DNA of 64,000 nt, taken from contig OZ014420.1 in assembly GCA_963965975.1 (NCBI GenBank), positions 2,072,001 to 2,136,000 on the forward strand. Reading direction: 5' to 3'. The DNA comes from Xestospongia bergquistia. Taxonomy: Eukaryota; Porifera; Demospongiae; Haplosclerida; Petrosiidae. Positions 32,465 to 64,000 of the stretch are shown in pieces (the stretch's first letter is position 1; each line of letters begins with the position of its first letter). Below the pieces are notes generated by a model that saw only the letters and a list, made by a program, of their open reading frames with translations, ran no database searches and was not told the origin of the DNA. Position numbers and translations under genes: made by a program.

Positions 32465-32475
32465 GTGTTTTAACT

Positions 32476-32762
32476 AATGTATTATTAATTTTCTAGAAAT
32501 TGTTTATCTTTGGAAACTCCCGTAACTTCCCAATATGTATTGCTATAATAACAAATCCTACATAGAGTAACCACAACTAAATTAGAGACAGTTCATTCCC
32601 AGATGTTATATATTACGATAGTTCCAGTTCATAGGTCATTCCCAGGTAGTGTGTGTTCAGTACATTAGTGACTTGTTATTGTTTGTGTCCTACATTTCTT
32701 CATTGGTAAGTCATGTAAATTAATAACAATATCAAATTGCTGTTTTTTAAAGAGCTCAAGTG
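32476..32762 (+). promoter_or_regulatory. TRIM-NHL copy 3 promoter and 5' UTR intron
   Basis: Nearly identical to the copy 2 upstream region. CATTCCCAG sites are at 32594 and 32637. The UTR intron acceptor reads AAAG instead of the ATAG seen in copy 2. Confidence 0.55.
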
Positions 32763-34903: not shown

Positions 34904-37900
34904 AGTCCTTTAGACTGAGCAGTTTACTCTATAAACTTGACTCAATAGTCTAAACCTTCTGAAATCTTTAAATTTAAGACTTTAGAGCGTTAATGCAAAC
35001 CAACTTAATAAACTGTTAATTGCAGTTTATTTAGTTAGTCCCTTTAAGTCCTTTAGAATCAGTGGTTTACTTAATAAACTTCACTCAGTAGTCTAAACCT
35101 TCTAAAGTCTTTAAATGAAAGACTCTAGAGCGTTAATGCAAACCAATTTAATAAACTGTTAGTTGCAGTTCATTTAGTCAGTCTCTTTATGTCCTTTAGT
35201 CTGAGCAGTTTTCTTTATAAACTTGACTCAATAGTCTAAACACTCTAAAGTCTTTATATTTAAGACTTTAGATCATTAATGCAAACCAACTTAATGAACT
35301 GTTAATTGCAGTTTACTTAGTTAGTCCTTTTAAGTCCTTTAGTCTCAGTGGTTTACTTTATAAACTTCACTCAGTAGTCTAAACCTTCTAAAGTCTTTAA
35401 ATTAAAGACTTTAGAGCGTTAATGCAAACCAAGTTAATAAACTGTTGGTTGCAGTTCATTTAGTCAGTACCTTTAAGTCCTTTAGACTGAGCAGTTTACT
35501 TTATAAACTTCACTCAATCGTCTAAACATTTCTAATGTCTTTAAATTATAGACTTTAGAACGTTAATACAAACCAAGTTAATAAACTGTTAGTTGCAGTT
35601 TATTTAGTTAGTCCCTTTAAGTCCTTTATACTGAGCAGTTTACTCTGTAAACATCACTCAATACTCTAAACCTACGAAAGTCTTTAAATTAAAGACTTTA
35701 GAGCGTTAATGCAAACCAACTTAATAAACTGATAATTGCAGTTTATTTACTTATTCCCTTTAAGTCCTTTAGACTAAGCAGTTTACTCCATAAACTTAAC
35801 TCAACAGTCTAAACCTTTTGAAGTCTTTAAATTTAAGACTTTAGAGCGTTAATGCAAACCAACTTAATAAACTGTTAATTGCAGTTTATTTAGTTAGTCC
35901 CTTTAAGTCCTTTAGACTCAGTCGTTTACTTTATAAACTTCACTCAGTAGTCTAAACCTTCTAAAGTCTTTAAATTAAAGACTTTAGAGCGTTAATGCAA
36001 ACCAAGTTAATAAACTGTTACTTGCAGTTCATTTCGTCAGTCCCTTTAAGTCTTTTAGTCTGATCAGTTTACTTTATAAACTTCACTCAATAGTCTAAAG
36101 CTTCTAAAGTCTTTAAATTAAAGACTTTAGAGATTTCATGCAAACCAAGTTAGTAAACTGTTAATTGCACTTTATTTAGTTAGTCACTTTAAGTCCTTTA
36201 GACTGAGTAGTTTACTCTATAATCTTGACTCAGTTTAAGTCCTTTAGACTGAGCAGTTTACTCTAAAAACATCACTCAATAGTCTAAGCCATCTAAAGTC
36301 TTTAAATTAAAGATTTTAGAGAGTTAATGCACCAATTTAATAAACTGTTAATTGCAATTTATTTAGTTAGTCACATTAAGTCCTTTAGACTGAGCAGTTT
36401 ACTTTATAATCTTGACTCAATTTAAGTCCTTTAGACCGAGCAGTTTACTCTAAAAACATCACTCAATAGTCTAAGCCTTCTTAAGTCTTTAAATTAAAGA
36501 CTTTAGAGCATTAATGCAAACCAACTTAATAAACTGTTAAATGCAGTTTATTTAGTTACTCCCTTTAAGTCCTTTAGACTGATCAGTTTACTCTATAAAC
36601 TTGACTCAATAGTCTAAACCTTATAAAGTCTTTAAATTTAAGACTTTAGATCGTTAATGCAAACCACATTAAGAAACTGTTAATTGCAGTTTATTAGGAT
36701 AGTCCCTTCAAACCCTTTAGCCTAAGTGATTTACTATATAATCTTCACTCAATAGTCTAAACCTTCTAAAGGGTTTAAATTAAAGACTTTACAGCGATAA
36801 TGCAAACCAACTTAAGAAATTGTTATTTGCAGTTTATTTAGTTACTCTTTTTAAGTCCTTTAAAATGAGCAGTTTACTCAGTAAACTTCACTCAATAGTC
36901 TAAACCTTCTAAAGTCTTTAAATTAAAAACTTCAGAGAGTTAATGTGAACGAGTTTAATAAATTGTTAATTGCAGTTTATCTAGACAGTCTCTTTAAACC
37001 CTTTAATCTAAGTGATTTACTATATAAACTTCAATCAATACTCTAATCCTTCTAAAGTCTTTAAATTAAAGACTTTAGAGAGTTAATGCAAACCAACTTA
37101 ATAAATTTTTATTTGCAGTTTATTTAGTTACTCACTTTAAGTCCTTTTAAATAAGCAGTTTACTCATTAAACCTCACTAAATAGTTTAAACCTTCTAAAG
37201 TCTTTAAATTAAAGAGTTTAGAGAGTTAATGCAAACCAACTGAATAAACTGTTAATTGCAGTTTATTTAGTTGGTTCCATTAAGTCCTTTAGACTGAGAG
37301 TTTACTCTATAAACTTGACTCAATAGTTTAAAACTTCTAAAGTCTTTAAATTAAAGACTTTAGAGAGTTAATTCAAACCAACTTAATAAACTGTTAATTG
37401 CAGTTTATTTAGTTAGTCCCTTTAATACCTTTATACTGAGCAGTTTACTCTAAAACTTGACTCAATAGTCTAAACTTGACTCAATAGTCTAAACCTTCTA
37501 AAGTCTTTAACTTAAAGACTTTAGAGTGTTAATGCAAACCAACTTAATAAACTGTTAATTGCAGTTTATTTAGTTAGTCCCTTTAATACCTTTATACTGA
37601 GCAGTTTACTCTAAAAACTTGACTCGATAGTCTAAACTTGACTCAATAGTCTAAACCTTCTAAAGTCTTTATATTTAAGACTTTAGAGCTTTAATGCAAA
37701 CCCACTTAAGAAACTGTTAGTCGCAGTTTATTTAGTTATTCCCTTTAAGTCCTTTAGACTGAGCAGTTTACTCTATAAGCTTGAATCAATAGTCTAAACC
37801 TTCTAAAGTATTTAAATTTAAGACTTTAGAGAGTTAGTGCAAACCAACTTAATAAACTGTTAATTGTTTTTTTAGTTAGTCCCTTTAAGTCCTTTAGTAT

Positions 37901-38715
37901 CAGTTGTTTACCTTATAAACTTCACTTAGCAGTCTAAACCTTCTAAAGTCTTTAAATTAAAGACTTTAGAGCGTTAATGCAAACCAAGTTTATAAACTGT
38001 TATTCGCAGTTAACTTAGTCAGTCCCTTTAAGTCCTTTATTCTGAGCAATTTACTTTATAAGCTTCACTCAATAGTCTAAAGCTTCTAAAGTTTTCAAAT
38101 TAAAGACTTTAGAGCGTTAATGCAAACCAAGTGAATAAACTGTTAGTTGCAGTTTATTTAGTTAGTTCCTCTAAGCCCTTTAGACTGACTTGTTTACTTT
38201 ATAAACTTCACTCAATAGTCTAAAGCTTTTAAAGTCTTTAAATTAAAGACTTTATAGTGTTAATGCAACCAAGTTAATAAACTGTTAGTTGCAGTTCATT
38301 TAGTCAGTCCGTTAAAGTTCTTTAGTCTGAGCAATTTACTTTATAAACTTCACTCAGCAGTCTAAATCATCTAAAGTCTTTAAACTAAAGACTTTAGAGC
38401 ATTAATGGAAAAAAGTTTATAAACCGTTAATTGTATTTTATTTATTTAGTTCCTTTAATCCCCTTAGACAGAGCAGTTTACTCTATAAACTTCACTCCAT
38501 AATTTAAACATTCTAGAGTCTTTAAATTAAAGACTTTAGAGCGTTAATGCAAACCAAGTTAATAAACTGTTAGTTAAAGTTTATTAAGTCAGTCCCTTTA
38601 AGCCCTTTAGTCTGCGCAATTTACTTGATAAAATTCTATCAATAGTTTAAACCTTCTAAAGTCTTTAAATTAAAGACTTTAGAGAGTTAATGCAATCAAA
38701 CTTAGTAAACTGTTA

Positions 38716-39480
38716 ATTGCAGTTTATTTGGTTAGTCCCTTTAAGTCCTTTAAACTGAGCAGTTTACTCTATAAACTTGACTCAATAGATTAAACCTTCT
38801 AAAGTCTTTAAATTAAAGACTTTAGAATGTTAATGCAAACCAACTGAATAAACTGTTAATTGCAGTTTATTTAGATAGTCCCTTTAAATCCTTTACCCTA
38901 ATTGATTTACTATATAAACTTCACTCAATAGTCTAAACCTTCCATAGTCTTTAAATGAAAGACTTTAGAGCATTAATGCAAACCAACTTAATAAATTGTT
39001 ATTTGCAGTTAATTTAATTATTCCCTTTAAGTCCTTTAGACTGAGCAGTTTACTCTATAAACTTGACTCAATAGATTAAACCTTCTAAAGTCTTTAAATT
39101 AAAGACTTTAGAATGTTAATGCAAACCAACTGAATAAACTGTTAATTGCAGTTTATTTAGATAGTCCCTTTAAATCCTTTACCCTAATTGATTTACTATA
39201 TAAACTTCACTCAATAGTCTAAACCTTCCATAGTCTTTAAATGAAAGACTTTAGAGCATTAATGCAAACCAACTTAATAAATTGTTATTTGCAGTTAATT
39301 TAATTATTCCCTTTAAGTCCTTTAGACTGAGCAGTTTACTCTATAAACTTGACTCAATAGATTAAACCTTCTAAAGTCTTTAAATTAAAGACTTTAGAAT
39401 GTTAATGCAAACCAACTGAATAAACTGTTAATTGCAGTTTATTTAGATAGTCCCTTTAAACCCTTTAGTCTAATTAATTT
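38716..39480. repeat. Higher-order dimer repeat, 286-bp period
   Basis: Two distinct monomer types alternate three times. One has CAATAGATTAAACC and GAATGTTAATGC. The other has CCCTAATTGATTTAC and TTCCATAGTC. The shared AGTTTACTC landmark falls at 38761, 39047 and 39333, exactly 286 bp apart. Identity between dimers is far higher than between adjacent monomers, so this is a recent local expansion. Confidence 0.9.
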
Positions 39481-42400
39481 ACTATATAAACTTCACTCAA
39501 TAGTCTAAATCTTCTAAAGTTTTTAAATTAAAGATTTTAGAGAGTTAATGCAAACCAACTTAATAAACTGTTAATTGAAGTTTATTTAGTTAGTCCTCTT
39601 AAGTCCTTTAGACTGAGTAGTTTACTCTATAAAATTGACTCAATAGTCTAAACCTTTTAAAGACTTTAAATTAAAGCCTTTAGATCGTTTCTAAAGACCA
39701 ACTTATAAACTGTTAATTACAGTTTATTTAGTTAGTCCATTTAGGTCCATTAGACTGAGCAGTTTAATCTATAAACTTGACTCAGTAGTCTAAACCTTCT
39801 AAAGTCTTTAAATTAAGGACTTTTGAGAGTTAATGCAAACGAGCTTAATAAACTGTTAATTGCAGTTTATTTAGATAGTCACTTTAAACCCTTTAGTCTA
39901 AGTGATTTACAATATAAAGTTCACTCAATAGTCTAAACCTTCTCAAGTCTTTAAATTAAAGACTTTAGGGTGTTAATGCAAAAAAAATTAATAAATTGCT
40001 ATTTGAAGTTTATATAGTTCTTCCTTGAAGTCCTATTGACTGAGCAGTTTACTCTAGAAAACATCACTCAATAGTCTAAACCTTCTAAAGTCTTTAAATT
40101 AAAGACTTTAGAGCGTTAATGCAAACCAACTTATTAAACTGTTAGTTGCAGTTTTTTTAGTTATCCCCTTTAAGTCCTTTAGACTGAGCAGTTTTTCTCT
40201 ATAAAAATCACTCAACAGTCTAAACCTTATAAAATCTTTAAATTTAAGACTTTAGAGCGTTAATGCAAACCAACTTAAGAAACTGTTAATTGTAGTTTAT
40301 TTAGTTAGTCGCTTTAAGTCCTTTAGTCTCAGTGGTTCACTATATAAACTTCACTTAGTAGTCTAAACCTTCTAAAGTCTTTAAATTAAAGACTTTAGAG
40401 CATAATGCAAACCAAGTTAATAAACTGTTAGTTGCAGTTCATTTAGTCCGTCCGTTTAAGTACTTTAAGCTAAGCAGTTTAATCTATAAACTTGACTCAA
40501 TAGTCTAAGCCTCCTAAAGTCTTTAAATTAAAGACTTTTGAGAGTTAATGCGAACGAGCTTAATAAACTGTTAATTGCAGTTTATTTAGATAGTCACTTT
40601 AAACCCTTTAGTCTAAGTGATTTACAATATAAACTTCACTCAATAGTCTAAACCTTCTAAGGTCTTTAAATTTAAGACATTAGAGAGTTAATGATCACAA
40701 ACTTAATATTTTTTTTATTTGCAGTTTATTTAGTCATTACCTTTAAGTCATTTAGAATGAGCAGTTTACTCTATAAACTTGACTCACTAGTCTAAACCTT
40801 TTAAAGTCTTTAAATTAAAAACTTTAGAGCGCTAATGCAAACTAACTTAATGAACTGTTAGTTGCAGTTTATTTAGTTATTCCCTTTAAGTCCTTTAGAC
40901 TGAGCAGTTTACTCTGTAAAGTTGACTCAATAGTCTAAACCTTTTAAAAGTCTTTAAATTTAAGATTTTAGAACGTTAATGCAAACCAACTTACTAAACT
41001 CTTAATTGCAGTTTATTTAGTTAGTCCCTTTAAGGCCTTTAGTCTGAGCAATTTATTTTGTAAACATAACTCAATAGTTTAAACATTCTAAAGTCTATAA
41101 ATTAAAGACTTTAGAGTGTTACTGCAAACCAACTTAGTAAACTGTTAATTGCAGTTTATTAAGTTAGTTCCTTTAAGTCCTTTAGACTGAGCAGTTTCTT
41201 CAATAAACTTGACTCAATAGTCTAAACCTTCTAAAGTCTTTAAATTAAAGACTTTAGAGCGTTAATGCAAACCAACTGAATAAACTGTTAATTGCAGTTT
41301 ATTTAATTAGTCCCTTTAACTCCTTTAGACTGAGCAGTTTACTCCATAAACTTGACTCAATAGTCTAAACCTTCTAAAGTCTTTAAATTAAAGACTTTAC
41401 AGTGTTAATGCGAACGAGCTTGTTAAACTTAATTGCAGTTTACTTAGATAGCCCCTTTAACCCCTTTAGTCTAAGTGATTTACTAAATAAACTTCACTGA
41501 ATAGCCTAAAAGACTTTACAGAGTTAATGCAAAACAATTTAATAAATTGTTACTTACAGTTTACTTAGTTTTTCCCTTTAAGTCCTTTAGACTGAGCATT
41601 TTACTCTATAAGATTCACTCAATAGTCTAAACCTTCTAAAGTCTTTAAATTAAAGACTTTAGAGAGTTAATGCAAAACAATTTAATAAATTGTTACTTAC
41701 AGTTTACTTAGTTTTCCCTTTAAGTCCTTTAGACTGAGCATTTTACTCTATAAAATTCACTCAATAGTCTAAACCTTCTAAAGTCTTTAAATTAAAGACT
41801 TTAGAGCGTTAATACAAACAAACTTAATAAACTGTTGATTGCAGTTTATTTAGTTAGTTCCTTTAACTCCTTTAGACTGAGCAGTTTACTCTATAAACTT
41901 TACTCAATAGTCTAAACCTTCTAAAGTCTTTAAATTAAAGACTTCAGAGAGTTAATGCAAAAGAGCATAATAAATTGTTAATTGCAGTTATTTAGATCGT
42001 CTCTTTAAACCCTTTAGTCTAAGTGATTTACTATATAAACTTCACTGAATAGTCTAAACCTTCTAAAGTCTTTAAATTAAAGACTTTAGAGCGTTAATGC
42101 ACACCAACTTAATAAATTGTTATTTGCCGTTTATTTAGTTACTCCCTTTAAGTCCTTTAGACTGAGCAGTTTACTCTATAAAGATCACTCAATAGTCTAA
42201 ACCTTTTAAAGACTTTAAATTAAAGACTTTAGAGCGTTAATGCAAACCAACTTAATAGCCTGTTATTTTCAGTTTATTTAGTTATTTCCTTTAAGTCCTT
42301 TAGACTGAGCAGTTTATTCTATAAACTTGACTCAATAGTCTAAACCTTCTAAAGTTATTAAATTTAAGACTTTAGAGAGTTATTGCAAACTAACTTAATG

Positions 42401-45400: not shown

Positions 45401-46889
45401 AATTGCAGTTTATTTAGTTATTCCTTTTAAGTCCTTCAGTCTGAGCAGTTTACTTTATAAAATTCACTCAATAGTCTAAAGCTTCTAAAGTCTTTAAATT
45501 AAAGACTTTAGAGCGTTAATGCAAACCAAGTTTATAAACTGTTAGTAGAAGTTTATTTAGTTAGTCCCTTTAAGTCCTTTAGACTCAGTCGTTTACTTTA
45601 TAAATTTCACTCAGTACACTAAACCTTCTAAAGTCTTTAAATTAAAGACTTTAGAGCGTTAATGCAAACAAAGTTAAGAAACTGTTACTTGCAGTTCATT
45701 TAGACAATCCATTTAAGTCCTTTAGTCTGAACAGTTTACTTTATAAACTTCATTGAATAGTCTAAAGCTTCAAAAGTCTTTCAATTAAAGACTTTAAAAT
45801 GTTAATGCAAACCAACTTAATAAACTTTTAGTTGCAGTTTATTTAGTTATTCCCTTTCAGTCCTTTAGACTGAGTAGTTTACTCTATAAACTTGATTCCA
45901 TAGTCTAAACCTTATAAAGTCTTTAAATGTTAGACTTTAGATCGTTAATGCAAAACAACTTACTAAACTGTTAATTGCAGATTATTTACTTAGTCCCATT
46001 GAGTCCTTTAGACTGAGCAGTTTACTTTATAAATTTAACTCAATTGTCTAAACCTTCTAAAGTCTTTAAATTAAAGACTTTAGAGCTTTAATGCAAACCA
46101 ACTTAATAAAGTGTTAATTGCAGTTTATTTAGTTAGTCCCTTTAAGGCCTTTAGTCTCAGTGGTTCACTTTATAAACTTCAGTCAGTGCTCGAAAGCTTC
46201 TAAAGTCTTTAAATTAAAGACTTTATAGCGTTAATGCAAACCAAGTTAATAAACTGTCAGTTGCAGTTAATTTAGACAGTCCCTTTAAGTCCTTTAGTCT
46301 GAGCAATTTACTTTATAAAATTCACTCAATAGTTTAAACCTTCTAAAGTCTTTAAATAAAAGACTTTAGAGCGTTAATGCAAACCAACTTAGTAAACTGT
46401 TAATTGCAGTTTATTTAGTTAGTCACTTTAAGTCCTTTAGACGGAGCAGTTTACTCTATAAACATCACTTAATAGTCTAAACCTTCTAAACATTTTAAAT
46501 TAAAGACTTTATAGCGTAAATGCAAACCAACTTAATAAACTGTAAGTTGCAGTTTATTTAGTTATTCTCTTTAAGTCCTTTAGACTGAGCAGTTTACTCT
46601 ATAAACTTGACTCAATAGTCTAAACCTTCTAAAATCTTGAAATTTAAGACTTTAGAGCGTTAATGCAAACCAACTTAATAAACTGATAATTGCAGTTTAT
46701 TTAGTTAGTCCCTTTAAGTGCTTTAGACTCCGTCGTTTACTTTATAAACTTCACTCAGTAGTCTAAACCTTCTAAAGTCTTTATATTTAAGACCTTAGAG
46801 AGTTAATGCAAACCAACTTAATAAACTGTTAATTGCAGTTTACTTAGTTAGTCCCTTCAAGTCCTTTACTCTTAGCGGTTTCCTTTATT

Positions 46890-47016
46890 ATTAGACCTAA
46901 ACAGGAGCCTAAATGTTCATAGAACTACTAATGCAACCTGATTTGCAAAGAGGTCTTGACAGAAATAAAAAAGGTAAAAGCTGTTGTGATGTTGAGGTGG
47001 CGACAGGCTTTCCCAA
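46890..47016. other. Non-satellite patch inside the array
   Basis: About 127 bp of unrelated, higher-GC sequence replaces roughly 50 bp of one monomer (the second part of the first dyad and the start of the palindrome). It has no terminal repeats or target duplication that I can see. Satellite resumes at TTTAGAGCG. Confidence 0.75.
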
Positions 47017-49980: not shown

Positions 49981-50847
49981 CCTTTAAGTCCTTTAGTCTC
50001 AGTGGTTCACTTTATAAACATCAGTCACTGCTCTAAACCTTTTAAGGTCTTTAAGTTATAGACTTTAGACGTTTAAAGCAAACCAACTTAATAAACTGTT
50101 AGTTGCAGTTTATTTAGTTAGTCCCTTTAAGTGCTTTAGACTCAGTTGTTTACTTTATAAACTTCACTCAGTAGTCTAAACCTTCTAAAGTCTTTAAATT
50201 AAAGACTCTAGAGCATTATTGGAAACCAACTTAATAAACTGTTAGTTGCAGTTCATTTAGTCAATCTCTTTATGTCCTTTAGTCTGAGCAGTTTACTTTA
50301 TAAACTTGACTCAATAGTCTTAACCTTCTAAAGTCTTTAAATTTAAAACTTTAGATCGTTAATGCAAACCAATTTAATAAACTGTTAATTGCAGTTTACT
50401 TAGGTAGTCCCTTTAAGTCCTTCAGACTAAGTGGTTTACTTTATAAACTTCACTCAGTAGTTTAAACCTTCTAAAGTCTTTAAATTAAAGACTTTAGAGC
50501 GTTAATGCAAACTAAGTTAATAAACTGTTAGTTGCAGTTAATTTAGTCAGCCCCTTTCAGTCCTTTAGATTGAGCAATTTACTTTATAAACTTCACTCAA
50601 TAGTTTAAACATTCTAAAGTCTTTAAATTAAAGACTTTAGAGAGTTAATGCAAACCAAGTTAGTAAACTGTTAATTGCAGATTATTTAGTTAGTCACTTT
50701 AAGTCCTTTAAACTGAGCAGTTTACTCTTATACTCTTGACTCAATTTAAGTCCTTTAGACTGAGCAGTTTACTCTATAAACTTGACTCGATAGTCTAAAC
50801 CTTCTAAAGTCGTTAAATTTAAGACTTTAGAGCGTTAATGCAAACTA

Positions 50848-51604
50848 TACCATGTCCAAGTTGAGAAGAGCCATACAGACGTGTAAATAACTTTGCCGTT
50901 TTACGTGCTATTGACATGAAATTTGAACAATCGATTTAGTTCGCAAATACGCATTTTATATATAAAATTTGGCTCTCTGGCACTATGAGAAACGACCAAA
51001 CTAGAAAACTTCATACATTTTCAATGGCATACCTTTCACATACTTCAAATTGCACACCTTTGAGGGTTTAATAAAAAACAATTTTTGCTTTGAGAAGTCA
51101 GCCATCTGTCACGTCGCAATTCAAAATTACAATTCTAATTATATGAACAAATGGTATATTATAACAATTATTATTAAAATAAAAACCAGGTATCGTCTTT
51201 TGTGATTTGAGGCAGCTATAAAGCCACCATAGTTTTGAAAAAAACTTTTCGACAAAGAAGGAAGACTGAGAATGTCTACCTCTTTATGCTGGTATATGAA
51301 ATTTTTGTAGCATCAGAGGTTCGTTTCAGAGATTCCTTCAGTCCGTTCACGCCTGCCAAGTTCCTCAAAATATTCATAGACATTCACAACAAACTCCTTT
51401 GTTTGCGCTCTCTATCTCTTTCCAGTTGGCATGTTCACAAATACGAGAGAAAACGTGGTGTGTTCGCATGACATTCATGTGAACAAGTAATGAATATAAT
51501 TAAAACGGTAATTGTGTATAATAGGTGAGGAAATACCTCACCTTACATTCCATGCATAAAACGCCTTTTTTTAATGAAGGGCTCTTCTCAAATTGGACAT
51601 GGTA
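50848..51604. mobile_element. 757-bp non-autonomous inverted-repeat DNA transposon in satellite
   Basis: Terminal inverted repeats of about 25 bp with one mismatch start TACCATGTCCAA on the left and are complemented by TTGGACATGGTA on the right. The element is flanked by TA on both sides (50846-50847 and 51605-51606). Removing it and one TA restores the variant monomer reading GCAAACTAACTTAAT, so TA is the target duplication, as for Tc1/mariner-type elements. The TATA ends leave a slightly longer duplication possible. The inside has no transposase; an open frame at 51235-51471 (about 78 codons) shows no known domain. It is therefore MITE-like, mobilised in trans. Confidence 0.85.
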
Positions 51605-54600
51605 TAACTTAATAAACTGTTAATTGCAGTTTATTTAGTTAGTCCCTTTATGTCCTTTAGTCTCAGTTGTTTACTTTATACACTTCACTCAGAAGTCTAA
51701 ACATTCTAAAGTCTTTAAGTTAAAGACTTTAGAGTGTTAATGCAAACAAACTTAATAAACTATTAGTTGCTGCTTATTTAGTTATTCCCTTTAAGTCCTT
51801 AAGACTGAGCAGTTTACTCTATAAACTTGACTCAATAATCTAAACCTTCTAAAGTCTTTAAATTTAAGACTTTAGAGAGTTAATGCAAACCAACTTAATA
51901 AACTGTTAATTGCAGTTTATTTAGTTAGTCCCTTTAAGTTCTTTAGTCTCAGTCGTTTACTTTATAAACTTCACTCAGTTGTCTAAACGTTCTAAAGTCT
52001 TTAAATTAAAGACTTTAGAGCGTTAATGCAAACCAAGTTAATAAACTGTTAGTTGCAGTTAGCACCTTTAAGTCCTTTAGTCTGAGCAATTTACTTTATA
52101 AACTTCGCTCAATACTCTAAACCTTCAAAAGTCTTTAAATTAAAGACTTTAGAGCATTAATGCAAACAAAGTTAATAAACTGTTAGTTGCAGTTCATTTA
52201 GTCAATACCTTTAAGTCCTTTAGACCGAGCAGTTTTCTTTATAAACTTCACTCAATAGTGTAAACCTTCTAAAGTCTTTAAATTAAAGACTTTAGAGAGT
52301 TAATGCAAACCAAGTTAGTAAACTGTTAATTGCCGTTTATTTAGTTATTCTCTTTAAGTCCTTTATACTGAGCAGTTTACTCTGTAAACAACACTCAATA
52401 CTCTAAACCTTCCATAGTCTTTAAATTAAAGACTTTAGAGCGTTAATGCAAACCAACTTAATAAACTGTTAATTACAGTTTATTTAGTTATTCCCTTTAA
52501 GTCCATTAGACTGAGCAGTTTACTCCATAAACTGGACTCAATAGTCTAAATCTTCTGAAGTCTTTAAATTTAAGACTTTAGAGCGTAAATGCAAACCAAC
52601 TTAATAAGCTGTTAATTGCAGTTTATTTAGTTAGTCCCTTTTAGTCCTTTAGACTCAGTGGTTTACTTTATAAACTTCACTCAGTAGTCTAAACCTTTTA
52701 AAGTCTTTAAATTAAAGACTTTAGAGCGTTAATGCAAACCAAGTTAATAAACTGTTACTTGCAGTTCATTTAGTCAGTCCCTTTAAGTCCTTTAGTTTAG
52801 CAGTTTACTTTATAAACTTCACTCAATAGTCTAAAGCTTCTAAAGTCTTTAAATTAAAGACTTTAGAGCATTAATGCAAACCAAGTTAGTAAACTGTTAA
52901 TTGCAGTTTATTTAGTTAGTCCCTTTAAACCCTTTAGCCTAAGTTATTTACTATATAAACATCACTCAATAGTCTAAACCTTCTAAAGTCTTTAAATTAA
53001 AGACTTTAGAGTGTTAATGCAAACCAACTTAATAAATTGTTATATGCAGTTTATTTAGTTAGTCCTTTTAAGTCCTTTAGACGGAGCAGTTTACTCTATA
53101 AATTTGACTCAATAGTCTAAACCTTCTAAAGTCTTTAAATTAAACACTTTGGAGCGTTAATGCAAACCAATTTAATAAACTGTTAATTGCAGTTTATTTA
53201 GTTGGTTCGTTTAAGTCCTTACGTCTCAATGGTTTACTTTATAAAATTTACTCAGTAGTTTAAACCCTCTAAAGTCTTTAAATTAAAGACTTTAGAGCGT
53301 TAATGCAAACCAAGTCAATAAACTGTTAGTTGCACTTCATTTAGTCAGTCCCTTTAAGTACATTAGTCGAGCAATTTACTTTATAAACTTCACTCAATAG
53401 TTTAAACCTTCTAAAGTCTTTAAATTAAAGACTTTATAGACTTAATGCAAACCAACTTATTAATCTGTTAATTACAGTTTATTTAGTTATTCCCTTTAAG
53501 TCCTTTAGACTAAGGACTATACTGTATAAAATTGACTCAATAGTCTAAACCTTCTAAACTCTTTAATTAATGTCTTAATAGCGTTAATGCAAACCAACTT
53601 AATAAACTGTTAATTGCAGTTTATTTAGTTAGTCACTTTAAGTCCTTTAGCTGTGCAGTTTACTCTATAAACTTGACTCAATAGTCTAAACCTTCTAAAG
53701 TCTTTAAACTAAAGACTTTTAAGAGTTAATGTGAACGAGCTTAATAAACTGTTAATTGCAGTTTATTTAGATAGTCCTTTTAAACCCTTTAGTCTAAGTA
53801 ATTTGCTATATAAATTTCACTTAATAGTCTTAACCTTCTAAAGTCTTTAAATTAAGGACTTTAGAGCGTTAATGCAAACGTACATAATAAACTGTTAGTT
53901 GCACTTTACTTATTTGTTCCCTTTAAGTCCTTTAGACTGAGCAAATTACTCTACAATATTGACTCAATAGTCTAAACCTTCTAAAGTCTTTAAATTAAAG
54001 ACTTTAGAGAGTAAATGCACACAAACTTAATAAATTGTTAATTGCAGTTTATTTAGTTATTCCCTTTAAGTCCTTTAGACTGAGCAGTTTACTCTATAAT
54101 ATCTCTCAATATTCTAAATCTTCTAAAGTCTTTAAATTAAAGACTTTAGAGCGTTAATGCAAACCAATTTAATAAACTGTTAGTTGCAGTTTATTTAGTT
54201 ATTTTTTTAAGTCCTTTAGACTGAGCAGTTTACTCTATAAACTTGACTCAATAGTCTAAACCTTTTAAAGTTTTTAAATTAAAGACTTTAGAGCGTTAAC
54301 TCAAAGCAACTTTAAAAACTGTTAGTTGCAGTTAATTTAGTCAGTCCCTTTAAGTACATTAGACTGAGCAATTTACTGTATAAACTTCACTCAATAGTTT
54401 AAACCTTCTAAAGTCTTTAAATTATAGACTTTATAGAGTTAATGCAAAGCAACTTAATAAAATGTTAATGGTAGTTTATTTAGTTAGTCCTTTTAAGTCC
54501 TTTAGACTGAGCACTTTACTCTATAAACATGAATATATAGTGTAAACCTTCTAAAGTCTTTAAATTAAAGACTTTAGAGCATGAATGCAGACCAATTTAA

Positions 54601-57600
54601 TAAACTGTTAGTTGCATTTTATTTAGTTATTCCTTTAAGTCCTTTAGACCAAGCAGTTTACTCTATAAACTTGACTCAATAGTCCAAACCTTCTAAAGTC
54701 TTTAAATTAAAGACCTTAGAGCATTAACGCAAACCAACTTAATAAACTGTTAATTGCAGTTTACTTAGATAGTCCCTTTAAGTCCTTTAGACTGAGCAGT
54801 TTACCCTGTAAACTTGACTCAGTAGTCTAAAACTTCTAAAGTCTTTCAATTAAAGACTTTAGAGCATTAATGCAAACCATTTTAATAAACTGTTAATTGC
54901 AGTTTATTTAGTTAGTCCCTTTCAGTCCTTTAGACCAAGCAGTTTACTCTATAAATTTGACTCAATAGTCTAAACCTTCTAAAGTCTTTAAATTAAAGAC
55001 TTTAGAGCGTTAACGCAAATAAAGTTAATAAACTTGATAGTTGCAGTTCATTTAGTCAGTCGCTTTAAGTCCTTTAGTCTGAGCAATTTAGTTTATAAAC
55101 TTCAGTCAATAGTTTAAACCTTCTAAAGTCTTTAAATTAAAGACTTTAGAGAGTTAACGCAAACCAACTTAATAAAATATTAATTGCAGTTTATTTAGTT
55201 AGTCTTTTTCAGTCATTTAGTCTGAGTAGTTTACTCTATAAATTTGACTCAATAGTCTAAACCTACTGAAGTCTTTAAATTAGAGACTTTACAGCATTAA
55301 CGCAAATAAAGTTAATAAACTTGATAGTTGCAGTTCATTAATCAGTCGCTTTAAATCCTTTGGAGCAGATTACTCTGTAAACTTGACTCAGTAGTCTAAA
55401 CCTTCAAAAGTCTTTAAATTAAAGACTTTAGAGCGTTAATGCAAACCATTTTAATAAACTGTTAATTGCAGTTTATTTAGCTAGTCTTTTTCAGTCCTTT
55501 AGTCTGAGTAGTTTACTCTATAATCTTGACTCAATAGTCTAAACCGTCTAAAGTCTTTAAATTAAAGACTTTAGAGCGTTAATGCAATCCAACTTAATAA
55601 AATATTAATTGCAGTTTGTTTTCTTAGTCACTTTAAGTCCATTATTCTCAGCAGTTTACTTTATATACTTCAATCAATAGTCAAAACCATGTAAACTCTT
55701 TAAATTAAAGACTTCAATGCGTTAATGCAAACCAAGTTAATAAAATGTTAATTGCAGTTCATTTAGTCAGTCCCTTTAAGTCCTTTAGACTGAGCAGTTT
55801 ACTCTATAAACTTGACTTAATAGTCTAAACTTTAAATTAAAGACTTTAGAGAGTTAATGCGAATGAGCGTAATAAACTGTAAATTGCAGTTTATTTATTT
55901 AGTCCCTTTAAAACCTTCTACAGTCTAAACCTTCTAAAGTCTTTAAATTTAAGACTTTATAGAGTTAATGCAAACCAACTTAATAAACTGTTAAATGGAG
56001 TTTATTTAATTAGTCCCTATAAATCCTTTAGTTTCAGTGGTTTAGTTTATAAACTTCACTCAGTAGTCTAAAAGTTCTAAACTCATTAATTTAAGGACTT
56101 TAGAGCGTTCATGCAAACCAACTTAGTAAACTGTTTATTGCAGTTTATTTAGTCAGTCCCTTTAAGGCTTTTATACTGAGCAGTTTACTCTATAAACTTG
56201 ACTCAAAGGTCTAAACCTTCTAAAGTCTTAAAATTAAAAACTTTTGAGAGTTATTGCGAACGAGCTTAATAAACTGTTAATTGCAGTTTATTTAGTTAGT
56301 CCCTTTAAACCCTTTAGTCTAAGTGATTTACTATACAAACTTCACTCAATAGTCTTAACCTTCTAAAGTCTTAAAATTAAACACTTTATAGAGTTAATGA
56401 AAACCAACTTAATAAATTGTTATTTGCAGTTTATTTACCCATTCCCTTGAAGTCTCTTAGAATGAGCAGTTTAATCTATAAAGATCACTCAATAATCTAA
56501 ACCTTATAAAGTCTTTAAATTAAAGACTTTAGAGAGTTAATGCAAACCAACTTAATAAACTGTTAGTTGCAGTTTATTTAGTTACTCCCTTTAAGTCCTT
56601 TAGACTGAGCAGTTTACTCCATAAACTTGAATCAATAGTTTAAATCTTCAAATATCTTCAAATTAAAGACATTAGAAAGTTAATGCAAAACAACTTAGTA
56701 AACTGTTAAGTGCAGTTTATTTAGTCAGTCCCTTTAAACCCTTTAGTCTAAGTAATTTAGTATATAAACAACACTCAATAGTCTAAACATTCTAAAGTCT
56801 TTAAATTAAAGACTTTAGAGCATTAATGCAAACCAACTTAATAAATTGTTATTTGCAGTTTATTTATTTACTCCCTTAAAGTCCTTTAGAGTTAACAGTT
56901 TACTCTATCAACATCTCTCAATAGTCTAAACCTTCTAAAGTCCTTAAATTAAAGACATTAGAGCATTATTGCAAACCAACTTAATAAACTGTTAGTTGCA
57001 GTTTATTTAGTTATTCCCTTTAAGCCTTCAGACTGAGCAGTTTACTTCATAAACTTGACTCAATAGTCTAAACCTTCTAAAGTCTTTAAATTTAAGACTT
57101 TAGAGCGTTAATGCAAACCAACTTAAGAGAATGTTAATTGGAGTTTATTTAGTTAGTCTCTTTAGTCCTTTAATCTCAGTGGTTTAGTTTATAAACTTCA
57201 CTCAGTAGTCTAAACCTTCTAAAGTCTTTAATTTAAAGACTTTAGAGAGCATTAATGCAAAGCAAGTTAATAAACTGTTAGTTGTAGTTCATTTAGTCAG
57301 TCCCTTTAAGTACTTTAGTCTGGGCAATTTACTTTATAATCTTCACTCAATAGTTTAAACTTTCTAAAGAGTTTAAATGAAAGACTTTAGAGACTTAATG
57401 CAAACCAACTTAGTAAACTGTTAATTGCAGTTTATTTACTTAGTCCCTTTAAGTCCTTTAGACTGAGTAGTTTACTTTATAAACTTGACTCACTACTCTA
57501 AACCTTATAAAGTCTTTAAATTAAAGACTTTAGAGAGTTATTGCGAAGGAGCTTAATAAACTGTTTTAGCACTTTGTTTAGATAGTCCCTTTAAAGCCTT

Positions 57601-60600
57601 TAGTCTAAGTTATTTACTATATAAAGATCACTCAATAGTCTAAACCTTCTAAAGTCTTTAAATTAAAGACTTTAGAGTATTAATGCAAACAAAATTAATA
57701 AATTGTTATTTGCAGTTTTATTTAGTTATTCTTTTAAGTCCTTTAGACTGAGCAGTTTACTATATAACCTTCAATCAATAGTTTAAACCTTCTAAAGTCT
57801 TTAAATTGAAGACTTTAGAGAGTTAATGCAAACCAACTTAGTAAACTGTTAAGTGCAGTTTACTTAGTTAGTCCCTTTAAGACCTTTAGTCTAAGCAATT
57901 GACCCTATAAAATTCACTTAATAGTCTAAACCTTCTAAAGTCTTTAAATTAAAGACTTTAGAACGTTAATGCAAACCATCTTAATAAACTGCTAATTCAG
58001 TTTATTTATTTATTTCCTTTAAGTCTTTTAGACTGAGCACTTTACTCTATAAACTTCACTCAATAGTCTAAACCTTCTAAAGTCTTTAAATTAAAGACTT
58101 TTGAGAGTTAATGCGAACGAGCTTAATAAACTCTTTATTGCAGTTTATTTAGATAGTCCTTTTAAGCCCTTTAGTCATTTACTATATGAACTTCACTCAA
58201 TAGTCTAAAACTTCTAAAGTCTTAAAATTAAAGACTTTAGAGCGTTAATGCAAAACCTACTTAATAAATTGTTATTTACAGTTTATTTAGTTATTCCTTT
58301 TAAGTTCTTTAGACTGAGCAGTTTACTCTATAAACATCACTTAATAATCTTAACCTTCTAAAGACTTTAAATTATAGACTTTAGAGCGTTAATGCAAACC
58401 AACTTAATAAACTGTTACTTACAGTTTATTTAGTTACTCCCTTTAAGTCCTTTAGACTGAGCAGTTTACTCCATAAACTTCAATCAATAGTTTAAACCTT
58501 CTAAAGTCTTCAAATTAAGGACTTTAGAGAGTTAATGCAAACCAACTTAGTAAACCGTTAATTGCAGTTTATTTAGTTAGTCTCTTTAAACTTTTTAGTC
58601 TAAGTAATTTACTATGTAAACATCACTCAATAGAGTAAACCTTCTAAAGTCTTTAAATTAAAGACTTTAGAGCGTTAATGCAAACAAACTTAATATATTG
58701 TTATTTACAGTTTATTTAGTTAGTCCCTTAAAGTCCTTTAGACTGAGCAGTTTACTCTATAAACATCACTCAATAGTCTACACCTTCTAAAGTTCTTAAA
58801 TTAAAGACTTTATAGCGTTAATGCAAACCAACTTAATGAACTGTTAGTTGCAGTTTATTTAGTTATTCCCTTTAAGTCCTTTAGACTGAGCAGTTTACTC
58901 TATAAACTTCACTCAATCGTCTAAACCTTCTAAAGTCTTTAAATTTAAGACTTTATAGCGTTAATGCAAACCAACTTAAGAGAATGTTAACTGGAGTTTA
59001 TTTAGTTAGTCCCTTTAAGTCCTTTAGTCTCAGTGTTTTAGTTTATAAACTTCACTCAGTAGTCTAAACCTTCTAAAGTCTTTAATTTAAAGACTTTATA
59101 GCGTTAATGCAAAGCAAGTTAAAAAAATGTTAGCTGCAGCTCATTTAGTCAGTCTTTTTAAGTACTTTAGTCTGAGCAATTTACTTTATAATCTTCACTC
59201 AATAGTTTAAACGTTCTAAAGTCTTTAAATTACAGACTTTAGAGAGTTAATGCAAACCAACGTAGTAAACTGATAATGGTAGTTTGTTTAGTTAGTCCTT
59301 TTAAGTCCTTTAGACGTAGCACTTTATTTCATAAACTTTAATCAGTAGTGTAAACCTTCTAAAGTCTTTAAATTAAAGTCTTTAGAGCGTTAATGCAAAC
59401 CAACTTAATAAACTGGTAATTGCAGTTTATTTCGTTAGTCCCATTAAGTCCTTTAGACTGAGCAGTTTACTCTATAAACTTGACTCAATAGTCTAAACCT
59501 TCTAAAGTTTTTAAATCAAAGACTTTTAAGAGTTAATGTGAACAAGCACAATAAAATTTTATTTGCAGTTTATTTAGGTAGTCCCTTTAAACCCTTTAGT
59601 CTAAGTGATTTGCTATATAAATTTCACTCAATAGTCTTAACCTTATAAAGTCTTTAAATTAAAGACTTTAGAGAGTTAATGCAAACCAACTAAATAAACT
59701 GTTAGTTGCACTTTATTTAGTTACTCCCAATAAGTCCTTTATACTGAGCAGTTTACTCTATAAATATCACTCAATAGTCTAAACATTCTAAAGTCTTTAA
59801 ATTAAAGACTTTAGAGCGTGAATGCAAACCAATTTAATAAACTGTTAGTTGCAGTTTATTTAGTTATTCCTTTAAGTCCTTTAGACCGAGCAGTTTACTC
59901 TATAAACTTGACTCAATAGTCTAAACCTTCTAAAGTCTTTAAATTAAAGACTTTATAGCATTAACACAAACCAACTTAATAAACTGTTACTTGCAGTTAT
60001 TTTATTCAGTCCCGTTAAGTCCTTTAGTCTGAGCAATTTACTTTATAAACTTCAATCACTAGTTTAAACCTACTAAAGTTATTGAATTAAAGACTTTAGA
60101 GAGTTAATGCAAACGAACTTAGTAAACTGTTAATTGCAGTTTACTTAGTTAGTCCCTTTAAGTCCTTTAGACTGAGCAGTTTACTCTATAAATTTGACTC
60201 AATAGTCTAAACCTTCTAAAGTCTTAAAATTAAAGACTTTAGAGCATTAATGCAAGCCAACTTTATAAATTGTTATCAGCAGTTTATTTAGATAGTCCCT
60301 TAAAGTCCTTTAGAGTTAACAGTTTACTCTATAAATATCACTCAATAGTGTAAACCTTCTAAAGTCCTTAAATTAAAGACTTTAGAGCGTTAATTCAAAG
60401 CAAATTAATAAACCGTTAGTTGCAGTTTATTTAGTTGTTCCCTTTAAGTCCTTTAGACTGTGCAGTTTACTCCATAAACTTGACTCAACAGTCTAAACTT
60501 TCTAAAGTCTTGAAATTTAAGACTTTAGATTGTTAATGCAAACCAACTTAAGAGAATATAAATTTGAGTTTATTTAGTCAGTCCCTTTTAGTCCTTTAGT

Positions 60601-63600
60601 CTCAGTGGTTTAGTTTATAAACTTCACTCAGTAGTCTAAACCTTCTAAAGTCTTTAATTTAAAGACTTTAGAGCATTAATGCAAAGCAAGTTAATAAACT
60701 GTTAGTTGCAGTTCATTTAGTCAGTGCCTTTAAGTACTTTAGTCTGGGCAATTTACTTTATAATCTTCACTCAATAGTTTAAACCTTCTAAAGTCTTTAA
60801 ATTAAAGACTGTAGAGAGTTAATGCAAATCAACTTAGTAAACTGTTAATTGCAGTTTATTTACTTAGTCCCTTTAAGTCCTTTAGACTGAGTAGTTTACT
60901 TTATAGACTTGACTCAATAGTCTAAACCTTTTAAAGTCTTTAAATTAAAGACTTTATAGCGTTGATGCAAAACAACTTAATAAACTGTTAATTGCAGTTT
61001 ATTTAGTTAGTCCATTTAACTCCTTTAAACTGAGCAGTTTACTCTTAAACTTGACTCAATAGTCTAAACCTTCTAAAGTCTTTAAATTAAAGACTTTAGA
61101 GAGTTATAGCGAACGAGCTTAATAAACTGTTAAGAGCACTTTATTTAGATAAGTCCCTTTAAAGCCTTTAGTCTAAGTTATTTACTATATAAAGATCACT
61201 CAATAGTCTAAACCTTCTAAAGTCTTTAAATTAAAGACTTTAGAGTATTAATGCAAACAAACTTAATAAATTGTTATTTGCAGTTTTATTTAGTTATTCT
61301 TTAAAGTCCTTTAGACTGAGCAGTTAACTATATAACCTTCAATACATAGTTTAAACCTTCTAAAGTCTTTAAATTAAAGACTTTAGAGAGTTAATGCAAA
61401 CCAATTTAGTAAACTGTTCAGTGCAGTTTACTTAGTTAGTTCCTTTAAGACCTAAGCAATTGACCCTATAACATTCACTCAATACTCTAAACCTTCTAAA
61501 GTCTTTTAATGAAAGACTTTAGAGCGTTAATGCAAAACCAACTTAATAAATTTTTATTTGCAGTTTATTTAGTTATTACCTTTAAGTACTTTAGACTAAG
61601 CAGTTTACTCTATAAACATCACTCAATAGTCTAAACCTTCTAAAGTCTTTAAATTAAAGACTTTAGAGCATTAATGGAAAACCTACTTAATAAATTGTTA
61701 TTTGCAGTTTATTTAGTTATTCCTTTTAAGTCCTTTAGACTGATCAGTTTACTCTATAAACATCACTCAACAATCTTAACCTTCTAAAGACTTTAAATTA
61801 AAGACTTTAGAGCGTTAATGCAAACCAACTTAATAAACTGTTAGTTGCAGTTTATTTAGTTACTCCCTTTAAGTCCTTTAGACTGAGCAGTTTCCTTCAT
61901 AACCTTCAGTCAATAGTTTAAACCTTCTAAAGTCTTCAAATTAAGGACTTTAGAGAGGTAACGCAAACCAACTTAGTAAACTGTTAATTGCAGTTTATTT
62001 AGTTAGTCCCTTTAAACACTTTAGTCTAAGTAATTTACTATATAAACATCATTCAATAGACTAAACCTTCTAAAGTCTTTAAATTAAAGACTTTAGAGCG
62101 TTAATGCAAACCAACTTAATAAATTGTTATTTGCAGTTTATTTAGTTAGTCCCTTAAAGTCCTTAAGACTGAGCAGTTTACTCTATAAGCATCACTCAAT
62201 AGACTAAACCTTCTAAAGTTCTTAAATTAAAGACTTTAGAGTGTTAATGTAAACCAACTTAATAAACTGATAGTTGCAGTTTATTTAGTTATTCCCTTTA
62301 AGTCCTTCAGACTGAGCAGTTTACTCTATAAATTTGACTCAATAGTTTAAACCTTCTAAAGTCTTCAAATTAAGGACTTTAGTGAGGTAACGCAAACCAA
62401 CTTAGTAAACTGTTAATTGCAGTTTATTTACTTAGTCCCTTTAAACACTTTAGTCTCGGTGGTTTAGTTTATAAACTTCACTCAGTAGTCTTAACCTTCT
62501 AAAGTCTATAATTTAAAGACTTTGTAGCGTTAATGCAAAGCAAGTTAATAAACTGTTAGTTGCAGTTCACTTAGTCAGTCTTTTTAAGTAGTTTAGTCTG
62601 AGCAATTTACTTTATAATATTTACTCAATAGTTTAAACCTTCTAAAGTCTTTGAATTACAGACTTTAGAAAGTTAATGCAAACCAACTTAGTAAACTGGT
62701 AATTGCAGTTTATTTAGTTAGTCCCTTTAAGTCCTTTAGACTGAGCAGTTTACTTTATAAACTTGATCCAATAGTCTAAACCTTAAAAAGTCTTTAAATT
62801 AAAGACTTTAGAGCGTTAATGCAAACCAACTTAATAAACTGTTAATTGCAGTTTGTTTAGTTAGTCCATTTAACTCCTTTTGACTGAGCATTTTACTCTA
62901 TAAACTTGACTCAATAGTCTAAACCTTCTAAACTCTTTAGGTTTAAGTCTTTATAGAGTTATTGTGAACGAGCTTAATAAACTGCTAATTACACTTTATT
63001 TAGATAGTCCCTTGAAAGCTTGTAGTCTAAGTGATTCACTATATAAACATCAATCAATAGTCTAAACCTTCTAAAGTCTTTAAATTAAAGACTTTAGAGT
63101 ATTAATGCAAACAAACTAATAAATTGTTATTTGCAGTTTATTTAGTTATTCTTTTAAGTCCTTTAGACTGAGCAGTTTACTCTATAATCTTGAATCAATA
63201 GTTTAAACCTTTTAAAGTCTTTAAATTAAAGACTTTAGAGAGTTAATACAAACCAACTTAGTAAACTGTTAAGTGCCATTTACTTAGTTAGTCCCTTTAA
63301 GACCTTTAGTCTAAGCAATTGACCCTATAAAATTCACTCAATAGTCTAAACCTTCTAAAGTCTTTAAATTAAAGAGTTTAGAGCATTAATGCAAACCAAC
63401 TTAATAAACTGCTAATTGCAGTTTATTTAATTTAGTTCCTTTAAGTCCTTTAGACTGAGCAGTTTACTCTATAAACTTGTCTCAATAGTCTAAACCTTCT
63501 AAAGTCTTTAAATTAAAGACTTTTGAGAGTTAATACGAACGAGCTTAATAAACTTTTAATTGCAGTTTATTTAGATAGTCCCTTTAAACCCTTTAGTCTA

Positions 63601-64000
63601 AGTGATTTACTATATGAACTTCACTCAATACTCTAAAACTTCTAAAGTCTTTAAATTAAAGACTTTAGAGAGTTAATTCAAAATCAACTTAATAAATTGT
63701 TACTTACAGTTTATTTAGTTACTCCCTTTAAGTCCTTTAGACTGAGCAGTTTACTCTATAAACTTGACTCAATAGTCTGAACCTTCTAAAGTCTTTAAAT
63801 TAAAGACTTTAGAGCGTTAATGTAAACCAACTTAACAAACTGTTAATTGCAGTTTATTTAGTTAGTCCCTTTGACTACTTTAGACTGACCAGTTTTCTCT
63901 ATAAACTTGACTCAATAGTCTAAACATTATAAAGTCTTTAAATTAAAGACTTTAGGAAGTTAATGCAAACGAGCTTAATATATTGTTTATTGCAGTTTAT
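51605..64000. repeat. 143-bp satellite array, right block, continues past window
   Basis: It resumes in the same phase and orientation after the transposon, with about 87 more monomers to the window end. All three dyads are kept in most monomers. More monomers here have the AGTCTAAGT and ATTTACTATATAAA variant of the first dyad than in the left block. No gene is present. Confidence 0.95.
57000..63990. repeat. Long-range higher-order repeats in the right block
   Basis: A multi-monomer series with rare variants recurs. The variant GAGTATTAATGCAAACAAA with an added T in GCAGTTTTATTTAG occurs at about 57677, 61245 and 63099. The variant GAGCATTAATGCAAAGCAAG occurs at 57247 and 60671. Spacings near 3.42-3.57 kb (24-25 monomers) and 1.85 kb (13 monomers) show block duplication with gain or loss of single monomers. 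Confidence 0.75.

Follow-up and report, generated by a model that had tools for sequence, protein, structure and literature searches.

What a 143-bp satellite built largely of dyad symmetries is doing inside a gene copy of the sponge Xestospongia bergquistia, and whether it belongs to the centromeres of this animal, is the question raised by the 64,000-bp stretch of DNA analysed here (the window). A single array with a period of 143 bp and 201.9 copies was detected by TRF on the + strand from 34900 to 64000, so that the satellite of about 200 monomers described in the sequence-only reading is real. The array extends 1.44 kb beyond the window end, to about C10:2137443 (approximately 1443 in locus L009), giving a total length of about 30.5 kb. 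All full-length monomer matches are on the + strand, and the few matches on the − strand are partial and located over palindromes. A gap in the monomer matches revealed a 0.76-kb insert (about 50847 to 51605, no strand assigned) with terminal inverted repeats of ~25 bp and TA at either end, as read by eye; TA is a target site of MITE-like elements, and by eye the insert appears MITE-like. A diverged patch or insert was also observed in the monomer matches and sequence from 46855 to 47014 (again no strand assigned), together with several partial monomers, such as those at 36189, 36377 and 47793.

The claimed partition of the monomer into three dyads was confirmed by the consensus dyads and by folding. 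In the first monomer, H1 is a nested inverted repeat of 46 bp obtained from the fold (34909 to 34954; monomer positions 10–55), while H2, a 29-bp palindrome (34958 to 34986; positions 59–87, centre 73), and H3 (35002 to 35036; positions 103–137 when folded, centre 120) were obtained from both the dyad scan and the fold, with H3 spanning 35 bp when folded versus the 25 bp claimed; none of the three is stranded. The H2 consensus arms are complementary at 14 of 14 positions around the centre, and the folded dyads cover about 110 of the 143 bp of the monomer. H2 has the best ungapped dyad score, never reached in 2000 dinucleotide shuffles, and H3 the second best (P = 0.0005, 2000 shuffles), while the third score is ordinary (P = 0.98, 2000 shuffles) because the gapped H1 escapes an ungapped scan and appears only in the fold. 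The consensus folds as single-strand DNA at −26.6 kcal/mol, against −9.8 ± 2.4 in 200 shuffles (z = −6.95), and the consensus of arrays within the satellite domains described below gave a z of −6.43.

The window array itself had been read as potentially centromeric, which is not supported: it interrupts a gene copy as an ectopic insertion, ~0.3 Mb outside the core of the satellite domain of its chromosome (C10). The interrupted gene is a TRIM-NHL copy, the 5′ part of which (32745 to 34902, + strand) carries RING, B-box and filamin matches, with an open frame that already ends at 34444, upstream of the array. An array-free paralogue at 26274 to 28416 (+ strand) provides the empty site, being contiguous across 28382–28386, with its own frame split near 26750, and a second array-free paralogue at 21017 to 23293 (+ strand) retains one open frame with RING, B-box, filamin and NHL. 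TTT is shared at the insertion break, and the monomer phases at the two ends of the array match exactly. Such a precise insertion in a gene copy, and the HTH_psq- and DDE_1-bearing fragments of transposase found within the C10 domain, would fit a satellite travelling as or inside a transposable element, a transposon amplifying the tandem copies, but this is improbable, since neither terminal inverted repeats nor a target duplication beyond TTT were seen for the window array, about 3 bases were lost at the break, and start and end phases vary between the four two-sided arrays. Among these four, end-phase closure was exact in the window array, within 6 bp in one, and 56 and 59 off in the others; insertion of a circle was rejected as a general rule, matching end phases (within 6 bp) being present in only two of the four. 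The window array may have moved as a circle or as a copied block. Satellite DNA near genes outside heterochromatin is also described for the satellite-like elements of Tribolium castaneum in the available text of PMC3411249, whereas in the sponge case a 30-kb array can be compared with a paralogous site that has none, offering a direct view of satellite spread.

Across the genome, the satellite was located in one internal domain per chromosome on 15 of the 15 chromosome-scale contigs, as judged by pattern searches (for some patterns, from the matches listed) and sampling, with domain sizes of 0.35–0.90 Mb and centres at 0.35–0.78 of chromosome length. Exact matches of a 27-mer across H2 numbered 4690 for the version with A at position 73, 7335 with C and 5882 with T, totals that are not simply additive as the A and T versions may match one palindrome on opposite strands if the flanks are symmetric, and the reversed-pattern controls gave 0 matches. 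Among the first 100 matches listed for each, 99, 100 and 100 were within the domains of C1–C4, and four rarer patterns listed in full (34, 47, 11 and 17 matches) placed 109/109 in a single span per chromosome, one of these being the window's own array, counted within C10's span. In C13, one of 20 evenly spaced samples was satellite (at 3.680 Mb), and the samples at 3.36 and 4.00 Mb, inside the span, were not. The single domain on C5–C15 is based on the four short patterns, the matches listed in another search and the C13 sampling, and diverged dispersed copies could escape the pattern searches; one stray satellite 27-mer, at C1:1545659, was present among the matches listed. Based solely on how often the A and C variants occurred in samples, the copy number is roughly estimated at about 45000 monomers, or 6.4 Mb. 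As to the younger core and older edges expected of a centromeric satellite, pairwise identity was 0.917 within the domains of C10 and C11 versus 0.840–0.888 in edge and stray arrays, the edge loci having been picked by likeness to the window, and 0.907 in the C2 array L027. All coordinates are from one assembly, and long near-identical units are prone to mis-assembly.

One internal domain per chromosome agrees with monocentric chromosomes that carry a (peri)centromeric satellite, and this distribution on 15 of 15 chromosomes supports, at the level of sequence, the earlier suggestion of a centromeric or chromosome-structural satellite. We consider that the 143-bp satellite is probably the main (peri)centromeric satellite of this 15-chromosome animal genome, with giant units on nine chromosomes and the window array as an ectopic block. 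The satellite domain would then carry the kinetochore. Arrays outside the core, namely the window array and another at 2.366 Mb of C10, might point to a satellite with no centromeric link, either a selfish one or one forming an interstitial heterochromatic knob; knobs are usually missing from some chromosomes, and the presence of one internal domain on each of the 15 makes this quite unlikely. The CENP-C cupin model PF11699 had 0 matches in the genome, in a search without an animal positive control that an intron-split or divergent gene could escape.

The domains also contain recurrent non-satellite islands. A 39-mer island marker had 50 genome matches at ≤3 mismatches (control 0), of which 47 lie in the domains of nine chromosomes (C4, C5, C6, C7, C10, C11, C13, C14 and C15), on one strand per chromosome, with a stray copy at C13:2878123; at the same threshold the marker is absent from C1, C2, C3, C8, C9 and C12. 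Island spacing ranges from 48 to 224 kb (median 139 kb), with a mean within-chromosome CV of 0.166 against 0.838 under random placing (0/20000 as low). Because the island recurs on one strand at a spacing typical of each chromosome, satellite block and island together form a giant tandem unit on nine chromosomes. Three fixed changes are common to the C14 island copies (6/6) and one to the C4 copies (5/5). Among seven island frames, six had no Pfam match and one (L094:1368-1598, − strand) had three, all below the cut-offs; our by-eye guesses for the frames are ADP-ribosyltransferase-like and DUF2064-like. Ribosomal DNA was rejected as island content, with no Rfam matches in the island pieces searched (L092–L095 not included). 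An island captured in the satellite may have been amplified along with it through unequal exchange, and the resulting giant units may have passed between chromosomes.

These islands bear on a narrower reading, in which the satellite is pericentromeric only and the kinetochore occupies either the islands or some other sequence, in the domain or next to it. Drosophila centromeres, with transposon-rich islands flanked by satellites, offer a precedent, and fixed-orientation islands do recur in nine domains; as six chromosomes have a satellite domain without the island marker, we regard this as possible but rather doubtful. Judged by sequence, a satellite that is pericentromeric or forms a knob would look identical if the kinetochore were elsewhere or located on islands. 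Beyond the preferred (peri)centromeric reading, we tentatively propose two-scale centromeres, in which a dyad-dominated 143-bp satellite is combined, on 9 of 15 chromosomes, with a super-tandem of units (satellite plus island, 48–224 kb) that spread by copying from one chromosome to another before being homogenised on each, and where dyads would be inversion switches making macro-palindromes and phase-closed arrays would bud off into nearby genes.

Other repeat classes were also considered. On neither strand of the window array was the CENP-B box TTCGNNNNANNCGGG matched exactly (0 matches), which speaks against a CENP-B-box satellite there. Mean identity was near-flat across lags in the 10 arrays scanned (0.842–0.856 in the window), and for the window array periods of 286 and 429 receive higher TRF scores than 143; no multi-monomer higher-order repeat was clear. 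A ribozyme or structured-RNA/rRNA repeat was rejected, as Rfam gave 0 matches at gathering score in the window and in 11 other loci (L092–L095 not searched). A search of 10 kb gave two matches, the better of which, to mir-3136 (37226–37283), was dropped as sub-threshold, with 33.8 bits against a gathering score of 86 (E 0.00046).

Whether structure itself is maintained was assessed in 977 monomers, after removal of monomers that covered <126 model positions, were truncated at a locus end or had >15 gaps, and with loci L001–L008 excluded; L001–L028 are the window query's best matches, their surroundings or stretches next to the window, which over-represents edge arrays, and domain-interior values come from C10 samples and parts of L015–L017. 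The pairing-preserving changes expected of arms maintained by pairing showed no overall excess, with Watson-Crick-keeping double changes in 89/243 cases (0.366) at paired positions versus 773/1986 (0.389) at complementary non-partners. A lean toward pair-keeping double changes was confined to the smallest sets. The expectation that arms vary less than linkers was borne out weakly (base-stratified P = 0.028 for all 977 monomers, 0.089 for the window, 0.111 for edge arrays, 0.28 for the domain interior and 0.32 for the C2 set), and the H2 arm substitution rate is the lowest of the three dyads in the window set (0.0525) and the highest in the domain-interior set (0.0489). That selection for hairpin or cruciform structure keeps the dyads, in line with models of centromeric non-B DNA, would agree with the strong fold of the window and domain consensus, with the location of 7 of 9 window versus domain-interior consensus differences in linkers or loops and 2 of 9 in arms (88 of 140 positions), and with the C2 set, where double changes kept pairing at 8/15 partners versus 64/163 non-partners; it nevertheless seems unlikely to us, given the lack of excess across all monomers and the two further H3 pairs broken in the domain-interior subfamily. 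The dyads possibly extrude hairpins, and would not be base-paired elements under visible pairing selection.

Primate alpha-satellite is a single family in one domain of every chromosome, with higher-order repeats. The sponge satellite resembles it in this distribution, in chromosome-specific homogenisation and in apparently more diverged arrays outside the core, and differs in a higher order of 48–224 kb that includes non-satellite DNA, in the lack of a clear multi-monomer repeat and in a window array without the CENP-B box. It shares with Drosophila island centromeres the non-satellite islands inside satellite blocks, but the sponge islands are near-identical and form regular same-strand series on nine chromosomes. 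Non-canonical structure is likewise predicted for Drosophila centromeric DNA, where, in the available text of PMC9070824, dyad enrichment is confined to the Y centromere, whereas the sponge monomer consists mostly of dyads. The literature searched has very little on the centromere DNA of sponges or other early-branching animals; no sponge centromere satellite was named among the matches listed, and the sole centromere mention found in the available part of an Ephydatia paper is of one chromosome likely split at the centromere. The exact repeat for 15 domains yields FISH and CUT&RUN probes at once, and the satellite-plus-island units are chromosome-labelled copies for studies of centromere homogenisation and exchange.

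Strand switches were observed in loci L015, L016, L017, L022 and L027, and through them the satellite forms long inverted sub-arrays of the macro-dyad (Tribolium) type. Of four inversion events examined, two have a monomer dyad at their centre (chance about 0.02, on a small count). Dyads may therefore serve as sites of inversion, where breakage or template switching, as their main role, would flip the orientation of the array; the idea that dyads shape centromere arrays thus becomes testable. The likeness of inversion arms was 0.81–0.85 (C8) and 0.86–0.89 (C2) in the best 100-bp windows, which is not a measure of symmetry length. According to the available text of PMC13081366, TmSat1 and TmSat2 of Tribolium madens are (peri)centromeric satellites with macro-dyads, a unit of about 110 bp and 38% of the genome. 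The sponge satellite is like them in being likely (peri)centromeric on every chromosome, in having short dyads within its unit, and in its kilobase-scale inverted sub-arrays and recurring inversion sites. It is unlike them in that its dyads span ~110 of the 143 bp, in that monomer dyads lie at the centre of two inversion events, and in that a 48–224-kb satellite-plus-island unit is present in nine domains. That every inversion occurs on a dyad was rejected, the two island-flanking events not being dyad-centred. For one of these, when worked by hand, the phases on either side would fit a register with H2.

A single tandem array with a period of 143 bp and 201.9 copies was detected by TRF at 34900-64000 of the window, and nhmmer found full-length monomers on the + strand all along it; the series is broken twice and includes several partial monomers. 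The array ends on the right at about C10:2137443, beyond the window (C10 being contig OZ014420.1). The sequence-only reading had described three dyad symmetries per monomer, and the consensus carries them: H1 at positions 10-55, which is gapped and evident in the fold, H2 at 59-87, with 14/14 complementary arm positions, and H3 at 103-137. The top ungapped dyad score was reached by 0/2000 dinucleotide shuffles and the second had P = 0.0005 (H2 and H3), while the third was ordinary, since H1 is gapped and visible only by folding. As single-stranded DNA, the monomer folds with a stability 6.95 SD beyond 200 shuffles, and the domain-interior subfamily consensus lies 6.43 SD beyond its shuffles. 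An insert at 50847-51605, inside the satellite, is MITE-like, with terminal inverted repeats of ~25 bp and TA at both ends, and a mir-3136 match at 37226-37283 (Rfam score 33.8 bits, gathering 86) over the monomer hairpin is probably due to chance.

The assembly comprises 146.46 Mb in 21 contigs, with 15 of chromosome scale (C1-C15, 5.4-28.2 Mb) and six small ones (19-98 kb). Genome-wide, the 27-mer spanning H2 has 4690 exact matches with A at position 73, 7335 with C and 5882 with T, against 0 for the reversed-pattern controls. Among the first 100 matches listed per variant, in contig order, 99, 100 and 100 fell inside one large internal satellite block, or domain, each of C1-C4, and the only one outside the domains among the matches listed was a stray at C1:1545659. 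Four rarer patterns, with all matches seen (34, 47, 11 and 17), lay in 109/109 cases within a single span of their chromosome, with the array of the window counted as part of the C10 span, and further satellite places, among the matches listed by a search with the window array, were inside the same spans. C13 had no match to any of the four rarer patterns and its span is defined by copies of the island, a non-satellite stretch recurring inside domains; even sampling of this chromosome gave satellite in 1/20 samples, at 3.680 Mb, and the in-span samples at 3.36 and 4.00 Mb were not satellite. With their limits set at the outermost matches seen, the spans measure 0.35-0.90 Mb, total 9.86 Mb and have their centres at 0.35-0.78 of the chromosome. 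One domain per chromosome, on 15/15 chromosomes, is the pattern expected of a monocentric (peri)centromeric satellite, and we are aware of no further common cause that would account for all 15 domains. The domains are the putative kinetochore sites; a profile-model search of the genome for CENP-C gave no match, which counts weakly against this reading.

The proposal of a centromeric or chromosome-structural satellite is supported for the family as a whole but not for the array in the window, which is an insertion into a gene copy ~0.3 Mb outside the C10 core. Its left end lies inside a TRIM-NHL gene copy at 32745-34902 (RING, B-box and filamin matches), and on the right the same gene neighbourhood resumes from L009:1444, with piecewise identity of 91-93% to window 28386 onward. 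The alignment of the left flank to the array-free paralogue at 26274-28416 (93%) stops at 28382, immediately before the right-flank match, and the paralogue is uninterrupted across 28382-28386, so the array was inserted into a former site like that of the paralogue. TTT is shared at the left break and ~3 bases are absent; the array begins at monomer phase 1 and finishes at 143, although, given the partial monomers inside it, the copy number is not strictly an integer. Satellite was found in 0/5 samples of C10 (2.20, 2.24, 2.28, 2.32 and 2.40 Mb), which places the window array outside the core despite a 3.6-kb satellite array at 2.366 Mb. The window monomers diverge by 8.9% from their own consensus, and the paralogous flanks by 7-9% in total, or ~4% per lineage; judged by these divergences the array was probably already diverse on arrival, though gene conversion between the paralogues or unequal rates could mimic this. 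Genes of the TRIM-NHL type, with RING, B-box, filamin and NHL domains, form a tandem cluster next to the array (window 21017-34902 and L009-L012), and more open frames, RING-like by eye, lie to its right.

Within the domains, satellite and island form a giant unit. Ten of 14 two-kilobase samples from C10 2.44-3.00 Mb were satellite; three of the other four resemble other island pieces and one, L060, resembles none. L057 is 98-99% identical to L015 (C10) and to L016 and L017 (C11), and L059 and L062 share 99.9% identity across 808 bp. A 3-kb island query gave 40 copies (of 173 candidates, 40 were scored) that cover the greater part of its initial 1.9 kb, and a second island piece gave 34 near-full copies (34 scored among 488), and all of these (40/40 and 34/34) lie in satellite domains. 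A 39-mer island marker had 50 matches genome-wide at ≤3 mismatches (control 0), 47 of them on C4 (5), C5 (6), C6 (8), C7 (4), C10 (4), C11 (4), C13 (5), C14 (6) and C15 (5), on a single strand within each chromosome. Their 38 spacings range from 48 to 224 kb (median 139), with a mean within-chromosome CV of 0.166 versus 0.838 under random placing (0/20000 as low), and mean spacing differs among chromosomes (Kruskal P = 0.014), being ~212 kb on C13 and ~122 kb on C10, for example. Marker variants are fixed on C14 (6/6 copies) and C4 (5/5), which indicates homogenisation within chromosomes. The three remaining markers carry one common variant and may represent an older lineage that became dispersed. 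C10:2369411, on the strand opposite to the C10 series, lies next to a small satellite array apart from the domain; C4:4190504 is at the domain edge, opposite to the C4 series; and C13:2878123, on the same strand as the C13 series, lies 0.43 Mb from its domain. At ≤3 mismatches the marker had no match on C1, C2, C3, C8, C9 and C12, and the position-73 C variant, among the matches listed, occurs 9, 42 and 3 times on C1, C2 and C3 and at least 46 times within the initial 0.1 Mb of the domain on C4; two chromosome classes may be reflected in the absence of the marker and, as far as the listed matches show, the scarcity of the C variant on C1-C3.

The island was read in pieces, at ~2760-2797 kb on C10. 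Tandem exon-like fragments with splice-like borders by eye are present in L092-L095 (C10:2766-2786 kb), where no open frame exceeded 82 aa in the frames inspected; these may be transcribed or may be relics of an expanded gene. In Pfam, six of seven island frames had no match and one had matches below the cut-off only, and Rfam gave no match in the island pieces searched. L060 (C10:2680001-2682000, inside the C10 domain) holds transposase parts (HTH_psq 5.8e-7, DDE_1 1.6e-21); CENP-B is derived from transposases of this kind.

Among 977 aligned monomers from the window and 27 further loci, the arms had lower substitution rates than the linkers in every set: 0.077 vs 0.112 in the window (base-stratified permutation P = 0.089, and likewise below), 0.067 vs 0.091 in the edge arrays (P = 0.111), 0.042 vs 0.049 in the domain interior (P = 0.28), 0.062 vs 0.072 in the C2 set (P = 0.32) and 0.0715 vs 0.105 in all 977 (P = 0.028). 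The expected lower variability of arms is thus seen in direction, but the difference is modest and P < 0.05 was reached for all 977 only. Covariation of the arms was not borne out: double changes that keep pairing made up 89/243 at true pairs and 773/1986 at complementary non-partners in all monomers, 24/86 and 212/462 in the window, 28/68 and 231/608 in the edge arrays, 3/7 and 50/142 in the interior, and 8/15 and 64/163 in the C2 set. A lean towards compensation beyond a few points appears only in the two smallest sets (interior and C2), and the window leans the opposite way. The window and domain-interior consensuses differ at nine positions, seven in linkers or loops and two in arms (arms being 88/140 positions tested), with 0 changed partners. 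The dyads are a strong, inherited property of the family, with no visible policing inside arrays.

Their role would be best read as mechanical, through fork stalling, template switching and inversion, and cruciform extrusion would be possible. Six strand switches were phased in four loci (L027 and L022, one each; L015 and L016, two each); those of L015 and L016 look like the same two events, making four in total, and L017 has the same pattern, unphased. The C2 event (L027) centres on H2 (centre 73), with arm identity of 0.86-0.89 in the best 100-bp windows, the C8 event (L022) on H3 (centre 120), with 0.81-0.85, and the remaining two of four off any dyad. By chance, at least 2/4 events would lie this close (≤1 bp) to a dyad centre with a probability of ~0.02, which, short of proof, suggests dyads as inversion points; if so, the small dyads would be linked to macro-dyads as in Tribolium madens, where macro-dyads have been described (PMC13081366). 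Taken singly, centromeres made of satellite DNA, centromeric dyads (PMC9070824), macro-dyads and islands are already known; among the literature matches listed, none named a sponge centromere satellite or a tandem unit of satellite plus island at the 100-kb scale.

TTTAGGG repeats were observed at the C14 start (L037), the C15 end (L046) and the C2 end (L047), i.e., in 3/20 contig start or end pieces, four others being only N. This is the canonical plant motif according to TeloBase, and animals usually have TTAGGG (PMC10767889). The 18,997-bp contig C21 (L043) starts with tRNA-Phe (GAA), followed by rRNA-like sequence, and is probably the mitochondrial genome.
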